From contig NZ_QYBC01000003.1 in the NCBI RefSeq assembly GCF_004137085.1, forward strand, positions 1 through 64,000: a stretch of 64,000 nt of DNA, read 5' to 3'. Positions 46,397 to 63,347 of the stretch are shown piece after piece; within the stretch, counting starts at the first letter, position 1; every line of letters starts with the position of its first letter. The translations under genes were made by a program, and so were the position numbers. The stretch comes from Lichenibacterium ramalinae (GTDB lineage Bacteria > Pseudomonadota > Alphaproteobacteria > Rhizobiales > Beijerinckiaceae). The notes beneath the pieces are model-generated. The model was not told the origin of the DNA. It did not search any database and saw nothing but the letters and a program-made list of their open reading frames with translations.

Positions 46397-47821
46397 TTAC
46401 CGAAGCCAGCTCTGCGGCCGATCGGCCGGCCGCACCGGCAGGCCGGCCGGCACGAAGCGGCCGCGGCCCGGGCGCGACGTCACCCGGCCCTCGTGCCACA
46501 AAACCTCGCCGGCCGCGATCGTGGTCACGGGCCAGCCCCGTACGGCCCGCCCCTCGTAGGGCGTGTGGTCGTTCGCGTGGTGCAGCAGGGCATTGGTGAT
46601 GGTGACGGCGCGCTCGGGGTCCCACAGGACGATGTCGGCATCGGACCCGACGGCGAGCAGGCCCTTGCGCGGGGCGAGGCCGAAGATCCTGGCCGGCGCC
46701 GTGCTGGTGCGCTCGACGAAGTCGGCGAGCGACAGGTGCCCGCCCCGCACGGCGTCGGAGAACAGCAGGGCGAGCCGCGTCTCGATGCCCGGCAGGCCGT
46801 TCGGCACGGTGTGGAAGCCTCCGCCATGACGCAGCTTGTCGATGAAGAGCCAGGGGGAGTGGTCGGACGAGAAGATCGACAGCGTGCCGTCTCGCAACCC
46901 TTCCAGCACGGCGGCCTGGTCGACGGCGGTCCGAGGCGGCGGCGTGCAGACGCATTTGGCGCCTTCGAGCCCCGGCCGGTCCAGGTCCGCCGACGACAGG
47001 TAGAGGTATTGCGGGCAGGTTTCGGCCAGGATCGGCACGCCGCGGGCCTGGGCCCGCCGGATCTCCTCGACGACGCCGGCGGCCGAGACGTGGGCGACCA
47101 GGATCGGCACCTCGACGATCTCGCTCAGCGCGATGGCGCGGAACGCGGCCTCGCGGTCGCCGAGGGCCGGGCGGGACACGGCGTGGTGGCGCATCGCCGT
47201 CAATCCGGCGCCGACGAGCTTCTCGGTCAGCCACCGCACGCAGGCGTCGTTCTCGGCATGGACCATGGCGAGGACGCCGAGGGCGCGGGCCGCGTCGAGC
47301 ACCCGCAGCAACTCGCCGTCGTCGAGCTTCAGGCCCTCGTAGGTCATGTAGATCTTGATGGAGGTGCAGCCCTCGGCGACGAGGCGCGGCAGGTCTCGGT
47401 CGAGCGCCTCCGGCGTCGGATCGCCGAGGATGAGGTGGAAGTTGTAGTCGATATGCGCCTTGGCGGCGGCCTTGGCGTGGTAGTCGGCGGCGGCGGCGGC
47501 CAGCGATGCCCCCCGGAGCTGCATGGCGAAGGGCACGACCGTGGTGGTGCCGCCGCAGAGTGCCGAGAGCGTGCCGCTGGCAAGGTCGTCGGCGGTCGCC
47601 ATCCCGTCCCAGGGCGGCTGGTCCATGTGGCAGTGGGTGTCGACCCCGCCGGGCAGCACCAGGCGGTCGCGCGCGTCGAGGTCGCGCGACGCCGGGCCGA
47701 GGTCGCGCCCGATGGCGGCGATGAGCCCGTCGCGGACGCCGATGTCCACCACGGCCTCCCCGTCGGGCAGGACCGCGCGACCGCCCCGCACCGCGAGGTC
47801 GAAGGGCCGCCCGCCGCTCAC
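46397..47821 (-). CDS. Dihydropyrimidinase/D-hydantoinase
   Basis: A 474-residue cyclic amidohydrolase. The binuclear metal site is complete: HxH in GGVDTHCHMDQP (His63, His65), the carboxylated Lys in TSIKIYMTYEG, His in VHAEND, His in LVAHVSAAG, and Asp in SSDHSPWLF. It opens hydantoin or dihydropyrimidine rings to N-carbamoyl amino acids, the substrate of the facing carbamoylase. GTG 47821 starts the frame and overlaps the stop of the ABC ATPase gene (GTGA), so it is translationally coupled to the importer operon. The product could also be allantoinase-like; the HxH and length favour hydantoinase. Confidence 0.92.
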   Translation of the reverse strand: MSGGRPFDLAVRGGRAVLPDGEAVVDIGVRDGLIAAIGRDLGPASRDLDARDRLVLPGGVDTHCHMDQPPWDGMATADDLASGTLSALCGGTTTVVPFAMQLRGASLAAAAADYHAKAAAKAHIDYNFHLILGDPTPEALDRDLPRLVAEGCTSIKIYMTYEGLKLDDGELLRVLDAARALGVLAMVHAENDACVRWLTEKLVGAGLTAMRHHAVSRPALGDREAAFRAIALSEIVEVPILVAHVSAAGVVEEIRRAQARGVPILAETCPQYLYLSSADLDRPGLEGAKCVCTPPPRTAVDQAAVLEGLRDGTLSIFSSDHSPWLFIDKLRHGGGFHTVPNGLPGIETRLALLFSDAVRGGHLSLADFVERTSTAPARIFGLAPRKGLLAVGSDADIVLWDPERAVTITNALLHHANDHTPYEGRAVRGWPVTTIAAGEVLWHEGRVTSRPGRGRFVPAGLPVRPADRPQSWLR

Positions 47822-49863
47822 GGGGCGGTCTCGCGCCCGAGGTCGGCCGAGTCCAGGTGGCAGCGAATGGCGTGGCCGTCCTGGCGCGGGCTCAGCGGCG
47901 GCTCCTCGGTGTCGCAGATGGGTCCGATGCGGCGCGGGCAGCGCGTGTGGAACACGCAGCCCGAGGGCGGATCGACCGCGCTCGGGATCTCGCCCGACAG
48001 CGGGACGCGCTTCACCGCGCCGTCCGGCCCCGGCGAGGCCGACAGCAGCACCTCGGTATAGGGATGATGCGGGCCGGCGAAGACGCGGTCGGCCGGGCCG
48101 ATCTCCATGAGGCGCCCGAGGTAGAGCACGGCGATCCGGTCCGACACGTAGCGCACCACCGCGAGGTCGTGGCTGATGAAGAGGTAGCTCACGCCCTGTT
48201 CGGCCTGGAGATCGGCGAGGAGGTTCAGGATGGCGGCCTGCACCGACACGTCGAGTGCCGACGTGGGCTCGTCGCAGACGATGAGCCGGGGCCGCCCCGC
48301 GAAGGCGCGCGCGATCGCGACGCGCTGCTTCAGGCCACCCGACAGCTGCCGGGGCTTGGCGGCGAGATAGGCGTCGGCGAGCTGGACGCCGCGGGTGAGC
48401 GCCAGCATGCGCTCCCGCCGGGCCGCTCCCCCGAGGCCGGCGAGCTTGGCGAGGGCCCGGCCGATGATCCGGCCGATCGGATGGGCGCGGTTGAGCGCGG
48501 AATCCGGGTTCTGGAACACCATCTGGATCGCGGCGAGGTCGCGCCGCCGGCCGAGCGGCAGCAGCGCCTCCCCGTCGAGCGCGAGCCGGCTGTCGGCATC
48601 CGGCACCGTGAGGCCGAGCAGGATGCGGGCCAGGGTGGACTTCCCGCTTCCCGACTCGCCCACCAGCCCCAGCGTCTCTCCGGGCCGGACTGACAGGTCG
48701 ATGTCCCGCAGGGCCTGGACGGCCTGGCGTCCCTGCCGGAATGTCATGTTCAGGCCCGTCACGGCGAGCAGCGGGGCGTCGGCAGCGCGGTCCGCCGGGG
48801 CGGCCGGGGCTTGGGCGGGCGCGTTCCGGGGCAGGTGCGGCGCCTCGGCGTGGAAGTGGCAGCGGCTCGAGCGGCCGTCGCCGAGCGGGATCAGTGGGGG
48901 CGGATCGGCCCGGCAGACGTCGCGGGCGAGGCCGCAGCGGGGTGCGAAGACGCAACCCGCGGGCGCCGTCGCGGCGGTCGGCAGGAAGCCCGGGATCGTG
49001 TCGAGCCGCTCGCGCCGCCGGTCGAGGCCGCGGCGCGGGAGGCAGCGCAGCAGCCCCACAGTGTAGGGATGGCGCGGGTTCGCGAGGACCGCCCGGGTGG
49101 GTCCCTGCTCGACGAGGCGCCCGGCGTAGAGCACGCCCACCTCGGCGCACATGCGGGCGATGACCTCGAGATTGTGGCCGATGAACAGCACCGCCGTGCC
49201 GTTCTCGCGTCGCAGCGTTTCGACGAGGTCGAGCACCTCGGCCTCGACCGTGGCATCGAGTCCCGTGGTGGGCTCGTCGAGCACGATGAGCTCGCGCCTC
49301 ACCGCCAGCGCCATGGCGATGACGACGCGCTGCTGCATGCCGCCCGAGAGCTGGTGCGGGTACCGCTCCATGACGCTGGCGGGATCGGCAATCCGCACCC
49401 GGCCCAGCATGGCGAGCGCCCGGGCGCGGGCCTCCTCGGGGCCGGCACCGTCGAGCCCGTAGATTTCCGCCACCTGGGCACCGATGCGGATCGTCGGGTT
49501 CAGCGCGCGGCCGGGGTCCTGGTAGACCATCGACACGCTGTGCCGGCGCAGGTCGCGCAGCGCCGCGGCCGGCAGCGCCGTGACGTCGCGGCCGCCGACG
49601 AGGATGCGTCCCGCGTCGGTCCGGCCGTTCCGCGGCAGGTAACGCATCGCCGCCATGGCGGCAGTGGACTTGCCGCAACCGGATTCGCCCACGAGCCCGA
49701 AGGTGCCGCCCGCCGGGATCGCGATGTCGAGCCCGCGCAGCACCGGCCGGGACCGCCCGCGGACCCGGTAGGACACGTCGAGCCCGGAGATGCGCAGGGC
49801 GTCGGGCCTCAGGGCGGTGCCACTCACGCCGCTGCCCCGGTCGGCTTCGGCTAACAGCGTCAT
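47818..49863 (-). CDS. Peptide-type ABC transporter, two fused ATP-binding domains (DppDF-like)
   Basis: A 681-residue fusion of two ATPases. Domain 1: GESGCGKST, LSGGMQQRVVIAMAL, LIVLDEPTTGLD. Domain 2: GESGSGKST, LSGGLKQRVAIARAF, LIVCDEPTSALD. Each ends in the oligopeptide-type C-terminal Cys segment (GCVFAPRCGLARDVC and GCVFHTRCPRRIGPIC) thought to carry an iron-sulfur cluster. The ATG at 49863 overlaps the upstream permease end. It energises the importer for the hydantoin-derived or peptide-like compound. Confidence 0.92.
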   Translation of the reverse strand: MTLLAEADRGSGVSGTALRPDALRISGLDVSYRVRGRSRPVLRGLDIAIPAGGTFGLVGESGCGKSTAAMAAMRYLPRNGRTDAGRILVGGRDVTALPAAALRDLRRHSVSMVYQDPGRALNPTIRIGAQVAEIYGLDGAGPEEARARALAMLGRVRIADPASVMERYPHQLSGGMQQRVVIAMALAVRRELIVLDEPTTGLDATVEAEVLDLVETLRRENGTAVLFIGHNLEVIARMCAEVGVLYAGRLVEQGPTRAVLANPRHPYTVGLLRCLPRRGLDRRRERLDTIPGFLPTAATAPAGCVFAPRCGLARDVCRADPPPLIPLGDGRSSRCHFHAEAPHLPRNAPAQAPAAPADRAADAPLLAVTGLNMTFRQGRQAVQALRDIDLSVRPGETLGLVGESGSGKSTLARILLGLTVPDADSRLALDGEALLPLGRRRDLAAIQMVFQNPDSALNRAHPIGRIIGRALAKLAGLGGAARRERMLALTRGVQLADAYLAAKPRQLSGGLKQRVAIARAFAGRPRLIVCDEPTSALDVSVQAAILNLLADLQAEQGVSYLFISHDLAVVRYVSDRIAVLYLGRLMEIGPADRVFAGPHHPYTEVLLSASPGPDGAVKRVPLSGEIPSAVDPPSGCVFHTRCPRRIGPICDTEEPPLSPRQDGHAIRCHLDSADLGRETAP

Positions 49864-50714
49864 TCGGCGACCTCCGCCAGCCCGTCGGCCACGAGATTGA
49901 CGGCGATCACCAGCGACGCGATGGCGAGGGCGTCGAACAGCACCGTCCACCAGTAGCCGCCGCCGATCAGCGCGTAATTCTCCGATATGGCGAGGCCCCA
50001 GTCGGGCGAGGGCGGCTGCAGGCCGACCCCCAGGAACGACAGCGTCGCCACCGTGAAGATCGCGTAGCCGAGCCGCACCGTCAGCTCCACCACGATGGGG
50101 GGTAGGATGTTGGGCAGGATCTCGAACCCCATGAGGTGGAGGGCGGATTCGCCCCGCAGCCGCGCCGCCGCGACGTAGTCGAGGTTGCGCTCCGTCATGA
50201 CGGCGGCCCGCACCGTCCGGGCCACGATGGGCATGAAGCTGAGGCCGATCGCCGCCACCACGGTGGCGTTGGAGGCGCCGAGCGCCGTGAGGGCCAGCAG
50301 CGCCAGGATGAGCAGCGGCAGCGCCAGCACGGCTTCCACGATGCGGCTCAGCACGTCGTCTACCCAGCCCGGGAAGAAGCCCATGACGAGGCCGAGGGCC
50401 GTGCCGAGCGCGATGCCGAGCAGCGTCGCGAGCGGCGCCACCACGAGGATGTCGCGCGAGCCCGCGATGACGCGGGCAAACATGTCCCGGCCGAGCTCGT
50501 CGGTGCCAAACCAGTGCTCGGCCGAGGGCGGCGCCAGGCTGTTCAGGATGTCGTCGGCCAGCGGGTCGACGAGGAGGCGGCCGAACAACGCGCAGCTCAC
50601 CCAGAACAGGATGATCCCGAGCCCCACCAGGAAGGCGGGCGAGCGCAGCAGCAGGCGCAGCCGCTCGAAGCCTAGCGTCGTGCGGCGGGCGGCCGGCAGG
50701 CCGACCGCGCTCAC
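49860..50714 (-). CDS. Peptide-type ABC transporter permease (DppC-like)
   Basis: A 284-residue permease with about six membrane segments and the DppC marks HWFGTDELGRDMFARVIAGSR and YVAAARLRGESALHLMGFEILPN. It overlaps the ATPase by 4 bases and the DppB-like gene by 4 bases. Confidence 0.92.
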   Translation of the reverse strand: MSAVGLPAARRTTLGFERLRLLLRSPAFLVGLGIILFWVSCALFGRLLVDPLADDILNSLAPPSAEHWFGTDELGRDMFARVIAGSRDILVVAPLATLLGIALGTALGLVMGFFPGWVDDVLSRIVEAVLALPLLILALLALTALGASNATVVAAIGLSFMPIVARTVRAAVMTERNLDYVAAARLRGESALHLMGFEILPNILPPIVVELTVRLGYAIFTVATLSFLGVGLQPPSPDWGLAISENYALIGGGYWWTVLFDALAIASLVIAVNLVADGLAEVAE

Positions 50715-51664
50715 GCCCGTCCTCCCGCCCGGATCCGCGGGTTGAGGGCCGCGAGGAGCATGTCGGCGGCCAGCGTCGACAAGACGTAGATGACCCCGAC
50801 CGTCATGATGCCGGCCTCCAACATGGGGAAGTCGTGACCGCGCGCCGCAGTGTAGATGAGGCTGCCGATGCCCTGATAGTGGAACAGCGTCTCAATCACC
50901 ACGAGGCCGCCCACGAGATAGCCGGTCTGCGACGCCACGACCGTGATGGTGGGCAGCAGCGCGTTGCGCAGCACGTGGCGCATCACGACGTCGCGCCGCG
51001 GCAGGCCCTTCAACACGGCGGTGCGGGCGTAGTCGCTGTCGAGCGCCTCGACCGTGCCGGCCCGGGCCATGCGGGCGATGTACCCGAAGACGATGAAGAC
51101 GAGCGGGATGGCGGGCAGCACCAGATAATAGAGCTGCACGGCGGCACCCGCGCCCGGCGGGGGCGTGGCCGAGATGGGGAACAGCTTCAACCCGATGCCG
51201 AAGACCAGGATCAGCACGATGCCGGAGACGAATTCCGGCACCACCGTGGCCGACAGGCCGACCAGCACGATGGCCCTGTCGAGAAGCCGGCCGCGGTTCA
51301 GCGCCGCCACGATGCCGCCGAGGATCCCGAGCGGCACCACAAGCGTGAAGGCCACGCCGCCGAGCTTCAACGAGTTCCACAGCGCTGCTCCGACGAAGGG
51401 CGCGACGGGCGCCCGAAACGCGAAGGACTGGCTCATGTCGCCCCGCACGAAACGGCCGATCCATTCGCCGTACTGCACCAGCGCCGGGCGGTCGGCGCCG
51501 AGCTGGTGGTTCAGGGCCGCGACGGCGCGCGGATCCGCGAGCGGGCCCAGGACGGCGCGGCCGACGTCGCCCGGCAGCAGCTGCCCGCCCGCGAAGACGA
51601 GCAGGCTGAGGATGAACAACGTCACGGCGGCGTAGGGCAGGCGACGCAGCAGGAGCCCGAGCAC
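50711..51664 (-). CDS. Peptide-type ABC transporter permease (DppB-like)
   Basis: A 317-residue permease of the DppB family (LLRRLPYAAVTLFILSLLVF; coupling loop YARTAVLKGLPRRDVVMRHVLRN). GTG 51664 is chosen because it begins in the first hydrophobic helix, 19 bases after the binding-protein stop; the open frame upstream lies inside that gene. Confidence 0.9.
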   Translation of the reverse strand: MLGLLLRRLPYAAVTLFILSLLVFAGGQLLPGDVGRAVLGPLADPRAVAALNHQLGADRPALVQYGEWIGRFVRGDMSQSFAFRAPVAPFVGAALWNSLKLGGVAFTLVVPLGILGGIVAALNRGRLLDRAIVLVGLSATVVPEFVSGIVLILVFGIGLKLFPISATPPPGAGAAVQLYYLVLPAIPLVFIVFGYIARMARAGTVEALDSDYARTAVLKGLPRRDVVMRHVLRNALLPTITVVASQTGYLVGGLVVIETLFHYQGIGSLIYTAARGHDFPMLEAGIMTVGVIYVLSTLAADMLLAALNPRIRAGGRA

Positions 51665-51683
51665 GGCCGCGGCCCCGGCCGTC

Positions 51684-53339
51684 TCAGACGAAGCCCGCCC
51701 GGTCCAGGAACAGGCGGTTGGGGATCGGCGGGATGCCGGCGAGGCCCTTCCGGGTCGGCACGAGGTAGTCAAAGAAATATCCGAACAGCACCGGGGTCTC
51801 GTCGAGCAGCAGCGTCTCGATCTTGGCGGCGAGGTCGCGCTGGCCGCCGACGTCCGACGTCCGCCCGAACTGGTCCACGAGCGCGTCGTAGTCCTTGTTC
51901 TTGAAATGCGCGGCGTTCCAGGAGCCGTCGCTGAGCAGCGGCGCGCGCAGGAACACGTTGGGCACGCCGCGATGGCCGTAATCGGTGATCCCCATGGTGC
52001 TGTCGAGCCAATCGGACTGGCCGAAGACCGCCTTGCCGTAATAGGCGTCCTGCGACTCGATCTTGAGTTCGATGTCGATGCCGACCGCCCGGGCGAAGTT
52101 CTGCAGCAGCACCGCGTATTGCGGGATCTCGAGGTAGGTTTCGGTGGTGAGGTTGACCTTGAAGCCCTTGCCGACGCCCGCCGCCTCGAGGAGCTGCTTG
52201 GCCTCGGCGATGTCCTGCTTGCGCTGCGCGATAGTGGGGGCGGCCGAGGGATAGACGGTGGCGAAGGGCGTGTCGTTGCCGATCTCGCCGTATCCGCGCA
52301 GCAGGCCCGCCACGAGCTTCTGCCGATCCAGGGTCAGCGCCATGGCGCGGCGCACGCGCTTGTCGGCAAAGGGGCCCGCGTCGCAGCGCATGTGCACCTG
52401 CTGGTGCGCGGTGCTCTTCTCGCGGATGATTGTGACGTTGGGGTCGTTGAGCAGGGCCTGGCCGCCGATCACGGGCAGCTGGTCGATGAGATCGACCTGT
52501 CCGCCCTGCAGGGCCAGGATGCGCGGCTGTAGGGCGTCGAAATAGGTGAATTCCGTCCGGTCCGGCAGGGCCTTGTCGCCCCAATAGTCCGGGTTGCGCA
52601 CGAAGCTCGCCCCGACCTTGGGGGTGAACTTGTCGAGCTTGAAGGGGCCGGTGCCGTCCCAGTTCTTCTCGTAGTCGCCCTTGTAGCTGGCCGGCAGGAT
52701 GATGCAATTGTAGTTGTCGGACGAGACCACGTAGGGGAAGGCGCCGTACGGAGCGTCGAGGTGGAACTCCACAGTCAGGTCGTCGACCTTCCTGGCGTTG
52801 CCCTTGGACAGGATGCCCTTGAAGGCCGAAAGCGCGTTCGACGCGTTGGCGGGGTCGGCCAGGCGGTCGATCGTGGCGATCACGTCGTCGGCCTTCAGCG
52901 TGCCGCCGCTGATGAACTTGACGCCCGGCCGGAGCTTGAAGGTCCAGACGGACGAATCGTCGTTGTGGCTCCAGCTCGTCGCCAGGACGGGCTTGAGCGT
53001 GAGATCGGCTTGCGTGACGCAGAGGAACTCGCCGGCCTGGATCAACATGGTGAGGCCGCCGTCGTCCGCCACCGTGACGGGATCGACGGCGCCGGCCGGG
53101 GTCGCGATGGCGACCCGGATGGTGTCGCCCGGCTTGCCCTGCGCCATCGCCCGCCGCGGCGCCACGAGCCCGACGGCGCCGGCGAGCCCCCCAAGGGTTG
53201 AGAGCGACAGGCCCATGACGCTGCCGTGGCGCAGGAAGGACCGGCGGTCGAGGCGCCCGGCCAGGATCTCGTCAACGAGGTCGTTCTCGACCGCGCCGAG
53301 GCCGCGCCGGAGCGCATCGATGGACTTGAACTGCTTCAT
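51684..53339 (-). CDS. ABC transporter substrate-binding protein, family 5, Tat-exported
   Basis: A 551-residue binding protein of the peptide/nickel/opine family (SBP_bac_5; SWSHNDDSSVWTFKLRPGVK is the family signature region). The N-terminus has a twin-arginine motif DRRSFLR at residues 31-37 followed by a hydrophobic stretch ending in AMAQG, so it is exported folded by the Tat route; the 30-residue leader before the motif is unusually long. It is the first gene of the importer-hydantoinase operon and defines the cargo. Confidence 0.9.
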   Translation of the reverse strand: MKQFKSIDALRRGLGAVENDLVDEILAGRLDRRSFLRHGSVMGLSLSTLGGLAGAVGLVAPRRAMAQGKPGDTIRVAIATPAGAVDPVTVADDGGLTMLIQAGEFLCVTQADLTLKPVLATSWSHNDDSSVWTFKLRPGVKFISGGTLKADDVIATIDRLADPANASNALSAFKGILSKGNARKVDDLTVEFHLDAPYGAFPYVVSSDNYNCIILPASYKGDYEKNWDGTGPFKLDKFTPKVGASFVRNPDYWGDKALPDRTEFTYFDALQPRILALQGGQVDLIDQLPVIGGQALLNDPNVTIIREKSTAHQQVHMRCDAGPFADKRVRRAMALTLDRQKLVAGLLRGYGEIGNDTPFATVYPSAAPTIAQRKQDIAEAKQLLEAAGVGKGFKVNLTTETYLEIPQYAVLLQNFARAVGIDIELKIESQDAYYGKAVFGQSDWLDSTMGITDYGHRGVPNVFLRAPLLSDGSWNAAHFKNKDYDALVDQFGRTSDVGGQRDLAAKIETLLLDETPVLFGYFFDYLVPTRKGLAGIPPIPNRLFLDRAGFV

Positions 53340-53453: not shown

Positions 53454-54386
53454 ATGTTCGATACCGCCCATCCCTATCCGCGCGACCTCGTCGGCTACGG
53501 CGCCAATCCGCCCGATCCCGCCTGGCCGGGCGGTGCCCGTATCGCGGTCTCGCTGGTGCTGAACTACGAGGAAGGGGGCGAATACAGCGTGCTGCACGGC
53601 GACGCCCACTCGGAGAGTGCCCTGACCGACATGGACCGCCCGGCCGCCCTGCCGGGCGAGCGCAACCCGAATGTCGAGCAGAATTTCGAGTACGGCAGCC
53701 GCGTCGGCATCTGGTCGGTGATGCGCCTGCTGCAGGAGCGCGGGGTCGACGCCACCGTCTATGCGGTCGGCATGGCGCTCGAGCGCAATCCCGCCGTGGC
53801 GGCGGCTTTCCGCGAGTGGGGCGTGGAGGTCGCGTGCCACGGCCAGCGCTGGATCGACTATCAATTCGTGCCCGAGGCGGTGGAGCGCGCCGATATGGCG
53901 CGCTGCATCGACACGATCACGCGCCTCGTCGGCCGCCGACCGGTCGGCTGGTACACGGGCCGGCCCAGCCTCAACACGCGCCGGCTCGCCGTCGAGGCGG
54001 GCGGCTTCCTCTACGACAGCGACGCCTACAACGACGACCTGCCCTACTGGCTGCGCGTGTCGGGCCGGCCCCACCTCGTGCTGCCCTACAGTTTCGACAA
54101 CAACGACAGCCGCATGAACCGCAGCCAGGGGCTCGAAACCGGAGAGGACTTCCTGCGCTACTGCCGCGACGCTTTCGATTGGCTGTATCGATCGGGCCTC
54201 GAGGGGCGCCCCCGGATGATGTCGATCGGGCTCCACGCCCGCATCGTCGGCCGACCGGGCCGGATCGGCGCGCTGGAGCGCCTGATCGACCACATGCAGG
54301 CCCACGAGGGCGTGTGGATCGCCTCCCGGGAGGCCATCGCGCGCCACTGGCTAGAGCGCTTCCCGGCGCCCGAGCCCCGGGGCTGA
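53454..54386 (+). CDS. puuE: PuuE-type allantoinase (polysaccharide-deacetylase fold)
   Basis: A 310-residue NodB-fold protein. It starts YPRDLVGYGANPPDPAWPGG and continues LNYEEGGEYSVLHGDAHSE, the diagnostic PuuE sequence, unlike metal-dependent AllB. PuuE opens the hydantoin ring of allantoin. It is divergent from the binding-protein gene and convergent with the lyase gene (8-base gap). Its presence beside a separate hydantoinase means two unrelated ring-opening hydrolases in one locus. Confidence 0.87.
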   Translation: MFDTAHPYPRDLVGYGANPPDPAWPGGARIAVSLVLNYEEGGEYSVLHGDAHSESALTDMDRPAALPGERNPNVEQNFEYGSRVGIWSVMRLLQERGVDATVYAVGMALERNPAVAAAFREWGVEVACHGQRWIDYQFVPEAVERADMARCIDTITRLVGRRPVGWYTGRPSLNTRRLAVEAGGFLYDSDAYNDDLPYWLRVSGRPHLVLPYSFDNNDSRMNRSQGLETGEDFLRYCRDAFDWLYRSGLEGRPRMMSIGLHARIVGRPGRIGALERLIDHMQAHEGVWIASREAIARHWLERFPAPEPRG

Positions 54387-54393
54387 CCGCGCC

Positions 54394-55878
54394 TCACGGC
54401 ACGGAGGCGAGCCCGGCCCTGACGAGGTCCCGCCCGAGGGCGAGGTGGTCGGCCAGGGGGCGGTCGTCGCGGTAGGGCGCGGCGCGGGCGCGGACTTGCG
54501 CCAGGAGCACGGCGGTGCCGGGCGCCCAGTCCTGGCGGCCCGCGAGATCGTGGGCGTCGGCGCCCGCCAAAAGTTCGATGCCGAGGATCCGCTCGGCATT
54601 GTCCACGATGGCGAGCAGCTTGGTGGCGGCGGCGGTCGGATGGGCCAGCACGTCTTCCTGCAGGGCCGAGGTGATGCCGCCATCGAGGCTCGCCGGGGCG
54701 GCAAGCCGGCGGTTCTCGCCGACAAGGGCCGCAGCCGTGTACTGGGCGATCATGTAGCCGGAGCCGACGCCGGGATCGCCGCTCAAGAAGGGCGGCAGCC
54801 CGCTCACGGCCGGGTTCAGCATGCGGTCGAGCCGGCGCTCCGCCATGGCGGCCAGCTGCGCCACCGCGATAGCGAGCCCGTCGAGCGCCAGGGCGAGGGC
54901 GGGCGCCACCGCATGGGCCTCGGAGCGCACGACCGGTGCCTCCGGCGTGCCCGACACGATAGGGTTGTCGGTGACCGACGCGAGTTCCCGGTCCACCACG
55001 GCACCGGCCGCCGCCCAGGCGTCCCGGACCGCGCCGTGCAGCTGCGGTACGGCACGCAGGCTGAGCGCGTCCTGGATGCGGCCGTCCCGGTCGAGGGCGC
55101 CGCTGCCGGCGAGGCGCGCCCGGAGCGCCGCCCCGGCGGCCTGGAGGCCGGGCGAGCGCCGCACCGCCAGCACATCGGCGTCGAAGGCCGCGACGCCCGC
55201 CCCGAGCGCTTCGATCGTCAGCGCCGCCACGGCATTGGCGCCCTCGAGCAGGCGCTCGATCCGATGAAGCGCCAGGCAGGCGAGGCCGGTCGCGCAGGGG
55301 GTGCCATTGACGAGGCTGAGCCCCTCCTTGGCGACGAGGCTGAGCGGCCGCCGCCCGATGGCGGCCAGCGCGGCGGCGCCTTCGAGCTGGCGGCCGCCCA
55401 CGCGGGCCCGGCCTTCGCCGATCAGCACGAGGCCGATATGGGCCATGTGGGTTAGGTAGCCGACCGAACCACGCGCCGGCACCTCGGGGCAGCAGGACGC
55501 CCCGAGCAGGGCCAGCAGCGCCTCTACGGTCTCGACCCGCAGGCCCGAACGGCCGTGGGCGTAGTTGTTGACCTGCACCGTCATGATGGCGCGCACGTCG
55601 GCTTCGGGCAGCGGCTCACCGACGCCCACGGCATGGCTCATCAGCAGGTTGCGCGACAGGCGCGCCTGCTGGTCGCGAGGGACCAGCGTATCGGAAAGGG
55701 CACCGACGCCGGTGTTGATCCCGTATGCGCGCGGCCCGTGTTCGGCGATGGCCGCGACGATCCGCTCGGCCGCCGCGATGGCGGCCCAGGCTCCCGCGGA
55801 CAGGACGAGATCGGCGCCGTCCGCCACGGCCGCGACGCCGCGCCAGTCGAGCGGCTCGTCGCGCAGGATCTGCTTCAC
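54394..55878 (-). CDS. Histidine/aromatic ammonia-lyase family protein lacking the MIO tripeptide
   Basis: A 494-residue HAL/PAL-fold protein. Conserved active-site features are kept: Tyr52 in AYGINTGVG, His82 in LMSHAVG, Asn191 in SLVNGTP, the SLR segment in IQDALSLRAVPQ and Glu in SALQEDV. But where the family has GSVG-ASG-DLAPLSHMAL, this protein has GSVG-YLTHMAHIGL (137-150): the Ala-Ser-Gly that cyclises to the MIO electrophile is missing with no other change of spacing. GTG 55878 is preceded by GAGGACA and starts the family-like frame. Function therefore unknown: a MIO-independent lyase/mutase or a non-catalytic homologue. Confidence 0.85.
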   Translation of the reverse strand: MKQILRDEPLDWRGVAAVADGADLVLSAGAWAAIAAAERIVAAIAEHGPRAYGINTGVGALSDTLVPRDQQARLSRNLLMSHAVGVGEPLPEADVRAIMTVQVNNYAHGRSGLRVETVEALLALLGASCCPEVPARGSVGYLTHMAHIGLVLIGEGRARVGGRQLEGAAALAAIGRRPLSLVAKEGLSLVNGTPCATGLACLALHRIERLLEGANAVAALTIEALGAGVAAFDADVLAVRRSPGLQAAGAALRARLAGSGALDRDGRIQDALSLRAVPQLHGAVRDAWAAAGAVVDRELASVTDNPIVSGTPEAPVVRSEAHAVAPALALALDGLAIAVAQLAAMAERRLDRMLNPAVSGLPPFLSGDPGVGSGYMIAQYTAAALVGENRRLAAPASLDGGITSALQEDVLAHPTAAATKLLAIVDNAERILGIELLAGADAHDLAGRQDWAPGTAVLLAQVRARAAPYRDDRPLADHLALGRDLVRAGLASVP

Positions 55879-56104
55879 GGTTGTGTCCTCCCCGCCTTCG
55901 CGGCCCAGAACTGTAGCGACAGCTGGACCGAGTCGCCTGTGGCCGCAAGGGCCGATCGCGACCCAAACGGACACCAGAGTGACCTAACCTGATGTTCCAT
56001 GTCTCTGGTTCTCGTCGGTCCCCTCAATAAATTTGGTCCGAAACCTGTCAGTCAGGACACCAAGCGTCGGCCCGTCCGCCGGCACCAGCCTCAGGGAGAT
56101 ATCC

Positions 56105-56875
56105 ATGATCCTCGATCGGTTCAGGCTCGATGGGAAGGTCGCCGTGGTCACAGGAGCCGCGCGCGGCATAGGGCAAGCGATCGCGCGGGCGCTATGCGAG
56201 GCGGGCGCCGAGGTGATCCTGTCCGACATCGACCGGCTAGCAGTCCTGGCGGCGGCAAGGGAGCTTGAGGGAAGGGGATTCAAAGCCACTCCGATGACAC
56301 TGGACGTGACCGATTCCCCGGCCGTCGAGGCTGCCGCGATCGAAACGGCCCGCCGTCATGGCCGGGTCGACATCCTGGTCAATAACGCCGGCATCGGCTC
56401 GCTCGGGGCCGCGATCGACATGGGCGACGACGACTGGCGCCGCATCCTCGACGTGAACACCAATGCCGTGTTCTGGTGCTCCCGCGCCTTTGGCCGTCAC
56501 ATGGTGGCGAGGCGTGCGGGGGCGATCGTCAACATCGGCTCCATGTCGGGCCAGATCGTCAACCGAGGCTTCGCGGCGGCTCACTACATGGTCAGCAAGG
56601 CGGGAGTTCACCAGGTGACCAAGGCCCTGGCTGTCGAGTGGGCCGAGGCTGGTGTCCGGGTCAACGCCGTCGCGCCGGGCTACACGGCGACAAGTCAGAC
56701 CGAACTGCTGCGCAGCCGGCCCGACCTTCGCGACACCTGCCTCGCCACGACTCCCATGGGCCGCTTTGCCGACCCCGCCGAGATCGCTTCGGCGGTTCTG
56801 TTTTTGGCGAGCGACGCAGCGAGCTATTGCACGGGCACGATCCTGACCGTCGATGGCGGCCATACCTGTTGGTGA
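56105..56875 (+). CDS. Short-chain dehydrogenase/reductase
   Basis: A 256-residue classical SDR with TGAARGIG (17-24), NNAG, catalytic Ser in NIGSMSGQ and YMVSK. Its closest style is polyol/3-oxoacyl reductases. It is divergent from the ammonia-lyase homologue and the last gene of the catabolic part before the mobile-type module. Confidence 0.88.
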   Translation: MILDRFRLDGKVAVVTGAARGIGQAIARALCEAGAEVILSDIDRLAVLAAARELEGRGFKATPMTLDVTDSPAVEAAAIETARRHGRVDILVNNAGIGSLGAAIDMGDDDWRRILDVNTNAVFWCSRAFGRHMVARRAGAIVNIGSMSGQIVNRGFAAAHYMVSKAGVHQVTKALAVEWAEAGVRVNAVAPGYTATSQTELLRSRPDLRDTCLATTPMGRFADPAEIASAVLFLASDAASYCTGTILTVDGGHTCW

Positions 56876-59120: not shown

Positions 59121-60785
59121 TCAGCGTGCTCGTCCGACGGGCGCCACGGCCGCGACGAGCGGCCGGATGCGGTGGTCGGTATGGGCGACGGTCTTGCGCA
59201 GGCGGAGGGGATGGCGCGTCTCAAGCGAGCGGTTGGGAAACACCAACAGCTCGTCGACCGGCATGGTCACCAGGGCGTCCTGGCTCATCAGCGGGGCGGG
59301 CTGGGGCCCGCTGCTCGTCGTGGACGATCCTTGGCCGGCGGTCGGCCGGCTGAAGCTGTCGATCAGGGCGGTGTAGTTGCCGAGGGCGCGTGACCAGCGG
59401 TCGCTTTCGGCGGGGTCGACGGCCGACAGGTCGGACAGGGTGACGACCTCGGCGGTGTTGACCAGTGTCGCGGCGCCGGCCTCGCCGTAGAGCGACACGA
59501 TCTGCGAACGGTCCTGCCAGAAGGTCCACAGGCTGGCGCCGTAGCCGGGAAGCTCGGCGGCTGAGGTGAGGATCTCGTCGAAACGGCCCAGAGCGGCGGC
59601 CTCGTCGATGAACAGGATGACCCGCTCCTTCGGCCGGTTCCGTCGGATCGAGGTGAAGAGATCGGAGAGAAGCCAGCGCAACAGGGGGGCCAGGATGCGT
59701 TTGTGCTCGGGCGGGATGGCGATGAAGATGTCGACCTCGTTCCTGGACAGCTCGGCGAGGTCGAAGCTGCTGTCACCGACGAGGTGGCGCATGCGGGGGT
59801 CGGCCAGCCATTGGAAAGCTTGGAGGGCTGTCGAGCGGATCGGATCCCGCGTGCGCGGGTCGGCCTCCAGGATCTCCAGGGCGGCGAGTGCGGCCGGCTG
59901 CGCCCCCGCGGCCTTCAGCTGCTCGATGAAGTCGTCCGCGTCCGACAGCAGGCGGTGGATCTCGGGGGCCGTGCGGCGGTCGAGACGCAGAGACACGAGG
60001 ATGGCGCCGACGATGAGGTCCACGGCACGGTTGCGGAAGTAGGCGGATGCCTTGTCGCCGGAGCCGCTCTCGGGCAGCAGCGCCAGGGCGGTCTTCTGCA
60101 TGTAGAGGATGTCCTGAACCTGCAGCGTCGCGAGCGGGTTCCAGGTATCCTGTCCGCCGACGAGGTCGAGCGGGTCGAGGCAGACCACGCGACGGCCCAT
60201 GCGCTCGCGGCGCGCCTGGGTGGCGCGGTAGACCTCGCCCTTGGAGTCCAGCACCACGGCCGGCCCGGCCCAGGCGCCCGGCTCGGGATAGGACAGATTG
60301 GGGATGAGCAGACCGGAGGTCTTGCCGGTCCGGGGCGGCGCGATGGTGACGAGCGTGCCCTCAGCGGCGATGCGCACCGCGCGGCCGCTTGCCGGATCGA
60401 TGCCGAGTTCGAGACCGCGGGTCATGGTTACGCATTCGGCAGCGGTGGCGAACCGCGCCGCGCCGAAGGTGCCCGCGACATCCCGCTTGGCCATCGGCGG
60501 CTTCGGGGTGAAGCGAAGCAGGATGGCCAAGGCGAGCGGCGAGAAAGCGAGCAGCGGACCGAGGGACCAGCCTCCGTTGGCGAAGGCTTTCGACTGCCCG
60601 GTAGCGACGTCCCAGTAGGCTTCGGCGACTTGGCCGAGGTTGGGATGGGTCGTGAAATCGCCGAACCACACATTCGGCGACAGGGCCTCGGAAGGCCAAA
60701 ACGAAATCGCCAAACCATGTTGAACGCACAAAGCTAAAGGGTATATCAGGACGATCGACGCCGCGGCGAGTAACATGAGACGCAT
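59121..60785 (-). CDS. VirD4/TraG-type conjugative coupling protein
   Basis: A 554-residue membrane ATPase. Two N-terminal hydrophobic segments (around 5-20 and 73-90), Walker A IAPPRTGKTSGLLIPNL (about 148-164), and Walker B with downstream motif VILFIDEAAALGRF. This is the T4SS coupling protein that brings the relaxase-DNA complex to the channel. Shorter than typical VirD4 (about 650) but has all core motifs. ATG 60785 gives the first membrane helix directly. The other T4SS genes and a relaxase are not in the window. Confidence 0.88.
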   Translation of the reverse strand: MRLMLLAAASIVLIYPLALCVQHGLAISFWPSEALSPNVWFGDFTTHPNLGQVAEAYWDVATGQSKAFANGGWSLGPLLAFSPLALAILLRFTPKPPMAKRDVAGTFGAARFATAAECVTMTRGLELGIDPASGRAVRIAAEGTLVTIAPPRTGKTSGLLIPNLSYPEPGAWAGPAVVLDSKGEVYRATQARRERMGRRVVCLDPLDLVGGQDTWNPLATLQVQDILYMQKTALALLPESGSGDKASAYFRNRAVDLIVGAILVSLRLDRRTAPEIHRLLSDADDFIEQLKAAGAQPAALAALEILEADPRTRDPIRSTALQAFQWLADPRMRHLVGDSSFDLAELSRNEVDIFIAIPPEHKRILAPLLRWLLSDLFTSIRRNRPKERVILFIDEAAALGRFDEILTSAAELPGYGASLWTFWQDRSQIVSLYGEAGAATLVNTAEVVTLSDLSAVDPAESDRWSRALGNYTALIDSFSRPTAGQGSSTTSSGPQPAPLMSQDALVTMPVDELLVFPNRSLETRHPLRLRKTVAHTDHRIRPLVAAVAPVGRAR

Positions 60786-60816
60786 TTTTTCGGTCCTGAC
60801 ATACCACGAAATAGAG

Positions 60817-61236
60817 CTACAATGGCCGTCCCGGCCTGTTGATCCATTCAGTTTCAATCAATTCTCGTGAAGCACCTAGGTGGTGTTCAATATTCTGCGC
60901 TGACTCGATACTCGTGGCGTGGACTGGTAGAATTCGAGCTCCCATGCGATAGAAAGCATCGAGACGGTGCCTTCCATTGATAAAACCTATTTCTATTTTG
61001 AATTTTGGTGGAAGAAACGGTATTTTTCTTTTAATATTATCCGTATTCACGGCAATGGTCGGCAGCACGTATTGTAAGTTTCCTGTACGCAATCCCCTTT
61101 CATATTCGTCGTTTTCAGCCCTAATTTGTTTGTATGAGTCTTGCTCACGCCAGATCTGGTGGAGTCTAACCAGATCGACTATGGCAACTGGAGCTACGTC
61201 GTCTATCGGTTGCAGCGTGATCTGGCTACCATTCAT
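60817..61236 (-). CDS. ParB/Srx-like domain protein
   Basis: A 139-residue protein with a C-terminal ParB-N/sulfiredoxin-like motif EIGFINGRHRLDAFYRMGARILPVH (near residues 81-105). Codon use is markedly AT-richer than neighbours. ATG 61236 is preferred to the TTG at 61254. It precedes the coupling-protein gene by 31 bases and is the first gene of the minus-strand transfer operon. Likely DNA-binding or partition-like; the family also includes nucleases, so function is uncertain. Confidence 0.65.
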   Translation of the reverse strand: MNGSQITLQPIDDVAPVAIVDLVRLHQIWREQDSYKQIRAENDEYERGLRTGNLQYVLPTIAVNTDNIKRKIPFLPPKFKIEIGFINGRHRLDAFYRMGARILPVHATSIESAQNIEHHLGASRELIETEWINRPGRPL

Positions 61237-61494: not shown

Positions 61495-62685
61495 TCACAA
61501 CATTGAAAAGCGACGCACCAATGCGATCAGTTCATTTTGGCTATGAACACCGAGCTTCCCAAAGGAGCCCTTGAGGTGAATACGCGCAGTCTCATAGCTG
61601 ATACCCAATGTCTCGGAGACTTGTCTAGGCGTATACCCACTGGCGACGAGACGAGCTACCTCGGTCTCGCGGCGCGTCAAGCCGGTCGTAGCGACGAGAA
61701 GATCGATGCTACCTTCGTCAATGTGCGTCGGCCGCATGATGTCGAGTACAACGACCAAGGCACTCGTGGCGCGGAACACATCGAGCGCTTGGCCAAGCAC
61801 TGGCAAAACCAGGAGCCGCAGAGACCTCGCATCGTCCGTGATGAGCGTGACCAGGCTCGGCCTTCGCTGCCAGAGAGCAGTGGTCAGGGCTCCGTCGACT
61901 TTTCTCTGGCAACCCGGAACCGAGACTGCCAGACGCCTGTCCCTCAGCGTCACATCGGGGGCCAGGACCGTGAGGGCATCCGGGGAATGGCGGTGAACGG
62001 TGCCGTCGTAAGCGACGTAGAGGACGGGATCACCCCTCCCCAGGAACGGAGATGCGCGGCGATCGGCTTCGAGTTGCAACCTCGCTCGCGACGCCATTGC
62101 AGCGGCTCGAATGTAGGGCAGGAATGCCTTGAAGGTGTGGAGGTCGCCGGGGTTGAAGCCTCCACTTCCCGGGGGCCTGAACAGCATGAGGTTGACGGTG
62201 TCGTTTCCGGTCCCGTCGAGGTAGGCCGACGCCTGATACGCCAATCCTCTGGGCCGGATGAAATCCATGTAGAAGGCATCCCGCTCACGGGGTTCGCGAA
62301 AAACATCCATCTGGTCGCACAGAAACCCGTCGTGCGGGGCAGGGATCATCCTCGTCGCTTCCGTCAACGGTGGCGTTCTGCCGGCCGCGATGGCCTCGAA
62401 CGTCTCCGTCATATCGCTCGATGGAACGCCGAAGAGGCGGGGCGGCATGATGCACGATAGGGTGCCGCCAAGGCAGTTCAGTCTGGGTAGGGCTGTATCC
62501 AGCGCATCGACCCAGCGTCCACCGCTCGTGATTGATCCCAGAAGCTCACGTCCTGCGGCCTCCAGAACGCTCTCGGAGGAGGAGTACCCGCGGCGCACGC
62601 TCGTTGACCCAATTGGGGCAGCCGTCACCGTTCCGCATGACTCCGTGGAGCCCATGCCTAGCAGTTCATCGACGTCCTGGTTCAT
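61495..62685 (-). CDS. LuxR-type HTH transcriptional regulator
   Basis: A 396-residue regulator. The C-terminal GerE HTH is clear: GLTRRETEVARLVASGYTPR, SETLGISYETARIHLKG. The large N-terminal part has no acyl-homoserine-lactone domain signature and no receiver; it resembles PAS/GAF-type sensor regions of alphaproteobacterial LuxR solos. ATG 62685 is chosen (AGGACG upstream); the open frame reaches 62778, but its first codons are made by the palindrome at 62748-62763. Copies of the same palindrome flank the gene. Confidence 0.85.
   Translation of the reverse strand: MNQDVDELLGMGSTESCGTVTAAPIGSTSVRRGYSSSESVLEAAGRELLGSITSGGRWVDALDTALPRLNCLGGTLSCIMPPRLFGVPSSDMTETFEAIAAGRTPPLTEATRMIPAPHDGFLCDQMDVFREPRERDAFYMDFIRPRGLAYQASAYLDGTGNDTVNLMLFRPPGSGGFNPGDLHTFKAFLPYIRAAAMASRARLQLEADRRASPFLGRGDPVLYVAYDGTVHRHSPDALTVLAPDVTLRDRRLAVSVPGCQRKVDGALTTALWQRRPSLVTLITDDARSLRLLVLPVLGQALDVFRATSALVVVLDIMRPTHIDEGSIDLLVATTGLTRRETEVARLVASGYTPRQVSETLGISYETARIHLKGSFGKLGVHSQNELIALVRRFSML
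62608..62617. promoter_or_regulatory. Palindromic operator candidate, copy 2 (core only, in the LuxR gene)
   Basis: CCCAATTGGG inside the 5' part of the LuxR coding sequence, about 70 bases after its start. It is flanked by ACCCAATTGGGG; the outer bases are less symmetric than in the other copies. Confidence 0.45.
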
Positions 62686-62747
62686 GGCATGCGCGTCCTG
62701 GCCTGACATCCACGATGGATCATCGCAGGTGATGAGCCAGGGCGTCC

Positions 62748-62763
62748 TAACCCAATTGGGTTG
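62748..62763. promoter_or_regulatory. Palindromic operator candidate, copy 3 upstream of the LuxR gene
   Basis: TAACCCAATTGGGTTG, 14 bp of perfect symmetry, about 63-78 bases upstream of the chosen LuxR start. Suits autoregulation. Confidence 0.6.
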
Positions 62764-63347
62764 GTTCACATCATGCACTCAGGAGATGCCGAAAGCCGGC
62801 CTCCTCTGGGGCATATTCCGTCGCAGGCCTACACACCCTTCAACGATCGATATACCGAGGCTCGGCGATGGCGAGAAGTGAATCCTCACTGCTCCCTTCG
62901 AGGTCACTCATTTGCCAGCGGTGGCTGAGCGCGTGCAACCTGAACCTGAAAATGAATGCCACTTGGCGGGACAGCCCGGCATGAAGCTGGGGCCGAGCTT
63001 GCGTCCTCGTCACCTGGACCGAGCGGCATTGGGATTGAACACCAAATCGATGGCAAGCACTGACGGATGCGTCCCTCGGTGGTTGCGAGCCCCCGCAACC
63101 ACATCACCGAACCGACCCATCAGCCCCGCGCCCGACAGCGCGGGGCTGAAGGCGTTCGGGACACGGCATGTGCGGGGGAGGGGCGTGCGGGTTCGAGCGC
63201 CCGCGGCGCCGCGGCAGGGGAGGGCGGTGGAAAACGCGGTCGGCTCAGCCCTGTGGAATGCCGCTCCTCGGGCCATGGCCTTGCGGTTGAACGCCTCCAT
63301 GACGGGCCAGGCGGCGGGAGGGCCGGCCCCGGGGTCGACGTGCATGC
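62764..63347. other. Gene-free stretch
   Basis: About 580 bases. Both strands have open frames of Arg/Pro/Ala-rich composition; none matches a family. It probably includes the LuxR promoter at its left end and debris next to the transposase fragment. Confidence 0.4.

Follow-up and report, generated by a model that had tools for sequence, protein, structure and literature searches.

The window, the 64-kb stretch of DNA analysed here, contains a gene for a protein with the fold of histidine ammonia-lyase (HAL) in which the Ala-Ser-Gly of the MIO loop is deleted. Homologues with the same deletion are typically found among genes of histidine utilisation, and a sample of 32 forms a clade of its own. 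We propose, with about an even chance of being right, that the protein is an MIO-independent lyase that converts hercynine (N-alpha-trimethylhistidine) to trimethylamine and urocanate for the Hut pathway. The substrate, the product, the leaving group and the role assigned to each residue are putative.

A HAL-fold protein without Ala-Ser-Gly

The features of the locus are collected in Table 1. The translation of the lyase gene contains VPARGSVGYLTHMAHIGLVLIGEG, which includes the GSVGYL loop as read from the window sequence. The loop region is GSVG-YLTHMAH in the window protein and GSVG-ASG-DLAPLAH in Pseudomonas putida HAL. In the alignment of the two proteins three residues are absent at Ala-Ser-Gly, and there are otherwise no gaps nearby. 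The window sequence, the translation and this alignment all confirm the clean deletion reported in a preliminary description of the locus. The translation also retains Tyr52, His82, Asn191 and QED (407-409), as that description had stated. A sequencing error, which it had considered, was rejected as very unlikely, since the GSxGY loop is in frame in 100 of 150 rows of a smaller family alignment and in 118 of 199 rows of a larger one that includes it.

Table 1. Features of the lyase locus in the window.
Feature	Position	Strand	Basis and remarks
MIO-less HAL-fold lyase gene	55878-54394	minus	GTG start, 494 aa; open reading frame and translation
Residues 137-142 (GSVGYL loop), where three residues, Ala-Ser-Gly, are deleted	55453..55470	minus	Sequence and alignments
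Shine-Dalgarno-like GGCGGGGAGG	55888..55897	minus	About 9 nt 5' of the GTG start; by eye
Tyr52 codon (HAL Tyr53)	55723..55725	minus	Tyr in 118/118 deletion-type and 71/73 MIO-type rows
His82 codon (HAL His83)	55633..55635	minus	His in 118/118 deletion-type rows
Leu272 codon (HAL Tyr280)	55063..55065	minus	Leu in 118/118 deletion-type rows
Tyr380 codon	54739..54741	minus	Tyr in 118/118 deletion-type, Lys in 8/8 other MIO-less and Val in 71/73 MIO-type rows
Glu408 codon (HAL Glu414)	54655..54657	minus	Glu in 118/118 deletion-type rows
PuuE-type allantoinase/polysaccharide deacetylase homologue	53454..54386	plus	TIGR03212, 414.2 bits, just under the cut-off of 424.6
Hydantoinase and dipeptide-type ABC transporter genes	46397..53339	minus	TIGR02033, 475.7 bits, above the cut-off of 393.25
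SDR oxidoreductase	56105..56875	plus	Divergent from the lyase; family matches

The protein matches PF00221 (Lyase_aromatic) with 472 bits. It also matches eight ammonia-lyase and aminomutase models of NCBIfam, all under their cut-offs. The scores are 453.7 against a cut-off of 539.15 for TIGR01225 (hutH) and 455.6 against 524 for PRK09367, so the protein does not qualify as a histidine ammonia-lyase by these models. It has the Lyase_aromatic fold of the MIO-dependent ammonia-lyases (HAL/PAL/TAL) but not their Ala-Ser-Gly.

A model calculated with AlphaFold2 from an alignment of 18 deletion-type proteins has the HAL fold, with a mean pLDDT of 88 and a pTM of 0.91; pLDDT is below 50 in the QED loop (residues 403-411). 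In a Foldseek search with the model the top PDB match is P. putida HAL (1eb4, TM 0.92), and ergothionase 6s7j is at rank 18 (TM 0.89). The conserved fold that had been proposed is thus supported. P. putida HutH (1eb4/1b8f) is 36% identical to the window protein and is near the top of the solved structures by sequence also, where 7tqr is first.

We take the places of Tyr52, His82, Arg275, Glu408 and Asn191 to be those of the base, the imidazole contacts and the carboxylate contacts in HAL. HAL Tyr53 (Tyr52 in the window protein) would be the candidate base, and HAL His83 (His82) and Glu414 (Glu408) would be on the imidazole side. HAL Tyr280 and Phe329 presumably border MIO. The pocket had been described as otherwise preserved. 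This is true of Tyr52, His82, Arg275 and Glu408, but the places of Tyr280 and Phe329 are now occupied by Leu272 and Ala323. The kept contacts and these replacements suggest that recognition of an imidazole acid is retained, and that the surroundings of MIO and the amine are lost or smaller.

The sampled deletion-type lyases form a separate clade

The window protein was matched to some degree by 166 of 297 genomes of the order. Among the first 32 loci, three of which belong to the window's own genome, the loop is GSxGY in 21, ASG in 10 and of another form in one. A profile search of the phylum matched 168 of 398 genomes. It gave 23 matches above 600 bits, the next listed being at 439, and all 23 (18, 4 and the window protein) have the deletion loop. 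The 199-row alignment includes 80 loci that are the best 80 of 570 relatives from a contig scan, most of them from Rhizobium and other Rhizobiales, along with Paraburkholderia. Four loci (L191, L192, L194 and L195) were left out of it. With the rows classed by the loop itself, 118 are of the deletion type, 73 of the MIO type and 8 of other forms; at least three genomes are present twice in this alignment and in the gene-map counts (L034/L075, L036/L095 and L037/L102).

Tyr141 and His144 in the loop are present in all 118 deletion-type rows, as are Leu272 and Tyr380. Arg275, like Tyr52, His82 and Glu408, is also kept in every one of them, and Asn191 in 117. Outside the loop, two of 12 tabulated positions split the classes. 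The first is the HAL Tyr280 place, which is Tyr in all 73 MIO-type rows, whereas 7 of the 8 other rows have Leu and one has Ile; the 126 MIO-less rows, ergothionase among them, thus all have Leu or Ile here. The second is position 380, where the two MIO-type rows that do not have Val have Cys and Ile. Tyr380 is also found, by alignment, in the MIO-bearing Thermoplasma HAL (7tqr), and so is not exclusive to MIO-less proteins. The HAL Phe329 place is Ala in 102, Pro in 15 and Thr in one of the deletion-type rows.

Other near-fixed residues could in principle provide a different electrophile. His144, His281, His322, His413 or Cys195 would then hold a metal or replace MIO in the deamination of histidine itself. 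Cys195 is present in 116 of 118 deletion-type rows; in the smaller deletion-type set His281 is found in 100 of 100 rows, and His322 and His413 in 99 each. However, 13 of the 118 rows have Asn in place of His322, and Cys195 is not confined to the deletion type, being present in 6 of the 73 MIO-type rows. In addition, the available part of PMC8871633 describes Pseudomonas HutH1, to which we liken these proteins below, as not required on histidine. We consider this kind of histidine deamination a long shot.

The eight other MIO-less rows represent six distinct proteins (L189 repeats L156, and L193 repeats L003). Their loops are SSIG-EGD (ergothionase), GSIG-CAD and GSxG-AAD, and they appear to have lost MIO by another way. 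We refer to them as ergothionase-like, a provisional label based on the loop and Lys380. In four of the eight rows Arg replaces His82. One of them, L003, is a third HAL-family paralogue of the window genome (C54:66624-68081; about L159:9125-10594, plus strand). Its loop is GSIG-AAD, it has Arg in place of His82 and Lys at position 380, and it adjoins glycosyltransferase genes and a gene of the ornithine cyclodeaminase family.

A tree of 57 rows was calculated with the loop columns excluded, by a quick IQ-TREE search with SH-aLRT as the only support. It took the first 32 of the 39 deletion-type rows that remained after thinning at 80% identity, together with all 19 thinned MIO-type and all 6 thinned other rows. 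The 32 deletion-type rows lie on one side of a branch with an SH-aLRT of 99. The 19 MIO-type rows are grouped at 85. Neither group includes the 6 ergothionase-like rows, whose placement is unsure, IQ-TREE having warned of long branches among them. A separate clade of GSVGYL proteins, which the preliminary description had proposed to look for, is thus found among the sampled rows. The window protein belongs to it by its GSxGYxxH loop, Leu272, Tyr380 and its place in the tree. HutH is the sister group, and the two types share a home in hut operons.

The rows nearest to the window protein are L033 (72% identity in the genome search, 70% over the columns of the tree) and Aureimonas glaciei (L067), and in both the lyase gene is inside a hut operon. 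Among the 12 genomes listed for the window's family, a deletion-level score is found in the window genome alone; of the rest, five match more weakly (E 1e-55 to 1e-78) and six not at all. This suggests that the window lyase was acquired from outside.

Gene neighbourhoods

Neighbouring genes were compared by clustering 100 loci (99 relatives and the window) with family scans of representatives, and 18 further loci were then added. The regions within 8 kb of each of 117 deletion-type lyases were searched with named reference proteins. The stretches are about 12-21 kb long and some end at contig ends. The loci are related and some genomes occur twice, so the counts below do not represent independent events.

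The recurring neighbours are the HutC repressor, a HisJ/HisQ/HisM/HisP-type ABC transporter, a SolA-like oxidase, hutF, hutU, hutI and hutG. Within 8 kb of the 117 lyases, HutC is found at 99 loci, HisP-type proteins at 91, and HisM, HisQ and HisJ-type binding proteins at 90 each. SolA is found at 50, hutU and hutF at 37 each, hutI at 34, hutG at 32, canonical hutH at 28, ProV-type proteins at 20, ProX and ProW at 11 each and OsmF at 5. Immediately upstream, in the same orientation, 80 of the lyases have HisP, 8 ProV, 5 HutC and one HisM, and 23 have none of the tested genes there; an ABC transporter gene thus directly precedes the lyase at 89 of 117 loci. Directly downstream are SolA (42), hutI (10), another HAL-family gene (5), HutC (4), hutU (1), hutG (1) or none of the tested genes (54). 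The pattern recurs in Rhizobiales, Paraburkholderia and Pseudomonas-like loci. The conserved neighbourhood of the deletion-type lyases is histidine utilisation. One SolA-like representative passes the cut-off for N-methyl-L-tryptophan oxidase (413.4 vs 257), and a pattern that we take to be the flavin-Cys motif is matched by 46 of 49 SolA-like members. In 64 intergenic stretches between HutC and the transporter, the 9-mers GGTACCATA and GGTTGTATA are found in 46 and 35, respectively. By eye, no such frequent 9-mer was seen upstream of the window gene.

The window copy lacks this setting, which most relatives have: no HutC, HisJ-, HisQ-, HisM-, SolA- or hut-type match was found in the 64-kb window. 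The lyase gene is convergent with the PuuE-type gene and divergent from the SDR gene. Judged by gene direction, it is therefore not in one operon with the genes for the hydantoinase and the transporter. The preliminary description had linked the lyase to a hydantoin/ureide locus. A role in hydantoin or carbamoyl amino acid metabolism would agree with the hydantoinase, carbamoylase and PuuE-like genes within 10 kb of it, but this arrangement is not conserved. Within 8 kb of the 117 lyases the window-type hydantoinase and PuuE were found at none, and carbamoylase and DppB at one each. The hydantoinase and transporter block is not conserved with the lyase among relatives, and the PuuE-type gene is outside the conserved system. 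The hydantoin setting is private to the window genome. We reject a hydantoin or ureide function on these grounds and give it very little probability.

Elsewhere in the window genome, homologues of hutF, hutI and hutH are located on one other contig and a hutU homologue on a second, so that urocanate could be used there. No EgtD match was found in the window genome; hercynine would therefore come from outside. Two further genes on the minus strand of the window were noted. A TraG/VirD4-like conjugal coupling protein (59121-60857, under family cut-offs) is encoded 3.2 kb from the lyase and fits a mobile region. A 427-aa protein (61495-62778) has no NCBIfam match at E 1e-15, and its C-terminus resembles by eye a LuxR-type helix-turn-helix.

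Comparison with HutH1 and ergothionase

Five loci of one genus (L204, L205, L206, L211 and L212) share the order hutF, HutC, hutU, a gap, an XWV-type transporter, deletion-type lyase, MIO-type lyase, hutI and hutG. The published hut gene order of Pseudomonas is given in the available part of PMC8871633. HutH1, the second 'histidase' in the hut operon of Pseudomonas SBW25, has the same place, after hutXWV and before the MIO-bearing hutH, and by gene order alone we liken the deletion-type gene to it. Lyases of the branch with this order are about 50% identical to the Agrobacterium-type lyase used as reference. In the same part of PMC8871633, HutH1 is a 'histidase' dispensable for growth on histidine, and HutC binds when urocanate is absent.

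This dispensability, the lost electrophile and the intact hutH near 28 lyases could also be explained if the protein were not an enzyme, and acted as a sensor of histidine or urocanate or as an inactive partner in mixed HutH tetramers. The pocket does not look relaxed, however, as Tyr52, His82, Arg275 and Glu408 are fixed in 118 of 118 rows. At 89 of 117 loci no canonical hutH was found within 8 kb, which means that the loci do not as a rule pair the two; a further point against a non-enzymatic role is the transporter gene directly upstream at 89 loci. We judge a non-enzymatic role improbable.

Ergothionase is described in the available part of PMC13405746 as an MIO-less HAL-fold protein that expels trimethylamine. 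The Treponema denticola protein (6s7j) and the window protein share the HAL fold, the absence of MIO, Tyr52, His82, Arg275 and Glu408, and the replacement of Tyr280 by Leu. If the window protein were an ergothionase, it would convert ergothioneine to thiourocanate and trimethylamine, and the hydantoinase and carbamoylase of the window do recall later Ert steps. The preliminary description had allowed for a characterised family with the same motif. Ergothionase qualifies in being MIO-less, but its loop, SSIG-EGD, is one residue shorter than in HAL, whereas GSVG-Y is three residues shorter; it is in another part of the tree and is 28% identical. Position 380, presumably the catalytic Lys384 of 6s7j, is Lys in ergothionase and Tyr in the window protein and in all deletion-type rows. 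The sole match to the thiourocanate hydratase model in the window genome has 692.5 bits, under the cut-off of 930. The hydantoinase scores 198 against 650 for ErtD, and the carbamoylase 276 against 520 for ErtE. The identity as ergothionase was rejected on the signature residue, the tree, the hydratase and the Ert family scores, and we find it quite improbable.

The hydratase is over its cut-off in 4 of 289 genomes (L154, L155, L156 and L157). In L156 the MIO-less lyase adjoins it, and the best solved match of this lyase is 6s7j. In the stretches of these loci that were read, an ergothionase-like lyase is found in L156 only, L157 has an ASG-type homologue, and L154 and L155 gave no lyase match; a relative is located at the edge of the L154 stretch.

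Binding proteins of the transporters

The binding proteins provide mixed evidence for hercynine. At the positions that we take to be the trimethylammonium box of ProX, three Trp are kept in 13 of 13 HutX-type proteins. Two of these 13 proteins (L207 and L209), however, are encoded beside canonical hutH, and in P. fluorescens HutXWV contributes to the uptake of histidine, according to the available part of PMC8871633. The box is therefore not specific, and these binding residues and the role of HutXWV weaken the OpuAC-type transporters as proof of a betaine.

The 95 HisJ-type binding proteins have no recognisable betaine cage. In what we take to be LAO numbering, the Ser69 place is Asp in 93 of 95 and the Asp161 place is Asp in 93 of 95. 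These two acids would suit not only a cation but also an amine carrying N-H. For the one HisJ-type protein that was queried, the closest matches among solved structures are octopine- and nopaline-binding proteins. An opine substrate was set aside in view of the Asp that is found where the octopine-binding protein has Ala. This Asp is near-fixed in HisJ-type proteins encoded upstream of the lyase, for example at L062:6777-7658 (plus strand).

At four Agrobacterium/Rhizobium loci the OsmF-type proteins have Asp for Tyr341, Asp for Asn339 and Gln for Tyr443 of the EgtU cage, as this cage is described in the available part of PMC9732360. They are encoded on the plus strand upstream of HutC and the lyase (L114:8153-9067, L081:8150-9064, L079:8187-9101 and L129:8105-9073). 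The seven best solved matches of the L114 protein are EgtUC entries and Lmo1422. At L215:4078-6545 (minus strand) an AAD-type MIO-less lyase directly adjoins an OsmF-type betaine transporter, which keeps the aromatic cage (Asn, Tyr, Tyr and Tyr at the EgtU places). Next to the pair is a hut operon with a deletion-type lyase of its own.

Because the transporter pockets disagree, the substrate may instead retain N-H on its amine, as in mono- or dimethylhistidine. More broadly, urocanate could be formed from N-methyl-, N,N-dimethyl- or another N-substituted histidine, or from imidazole-lactate with loss of water. The HutC and hut context, the SolA-like N-methyl amino acid oxidase next door, the acidic, non-aromatic HisJ- and OsmF-type pockets, and the octopine- and nopaline-binding relatives of the queried protein would all agree with such a derivative. 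However, secondary amines could still use MIO, which would make them a weaker reason for its loss, and SolA is absent from many loci. We regard a derivative other than hercynine as rather unlikely.

Proposed function

The retained fold, the separate clade and the histidine-type recognition residues make it likely that the protein's chemistry is not the MIO-dependent deamination of the family, in line with the different chemistry suggested in the preliminary description. A HutC-linked transporter, an MIO-less lyase and an N-methyl amino acid oxidase near urocanate-using genes argue for an N-methylated histidine as substrate. Among the N-methylated histidines the evidence points to hercynine as the best fit. 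Its quaternary amine should be unable to add to MIO and, as a leaving group, should need none. Against hercynine, the SolA-like oxidase is within 8 kb of only 50 of the 117 lyases, 42 of which have it directly downstream.

In the proposed mechanism the lyase would bind the histidine-derived substrate through the retained His82, Glu408, Arg275 and Asn191, and Tyr52 would abstract the beta proton. The methylated amine, either unable to add to an electrophilic cofactor or in no need of doing so, would then be expelled, so that hercynine would yield trimethylamine and urocanate. Urocanate would release HutC and enter the ordinary Hut pathway. No report of hercynine breakdown or of an MIO-less HutH was found among the matches listed, in a search of a limited set of journals.

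The hercynine reading may extend beyond the window. We suspect, at somewhat short of an even chance, that the hut operons of many Proteobacteria contain a second entry branch, in which a transporter and an MIO-less lyase supply urocanate and trimethylamine from hercynine. HutH1 would be this enzyme and not a spare histidase. It would have arisen beside HutH and lost MIO separately from ergothionase. This covers Rhizobiales and Burkholderia relatives by name, and Pseudomonas by gene order. If true, a betaine of fungi and bacteria would be converted to trimethylamine by a route so far unrecognised, which would be an added source of trimethylamine. The reading would explain why HutH1 is dispensable on histidine, and would provide a second, separate loss of MIO favouring a quaternary-amine leaving group.

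Annotations of the hutH type would also have to be corrected. Among 40 plasmid records listed at 59-67% identity to the window protein, which were matched by identity and not by the loop, 21 are labelled hutH or histidine ammonia-lyase, and the other 19 have no label under the match. A large MIO-less group thus appears to be mislabelled as histidine ammonia-lyase.
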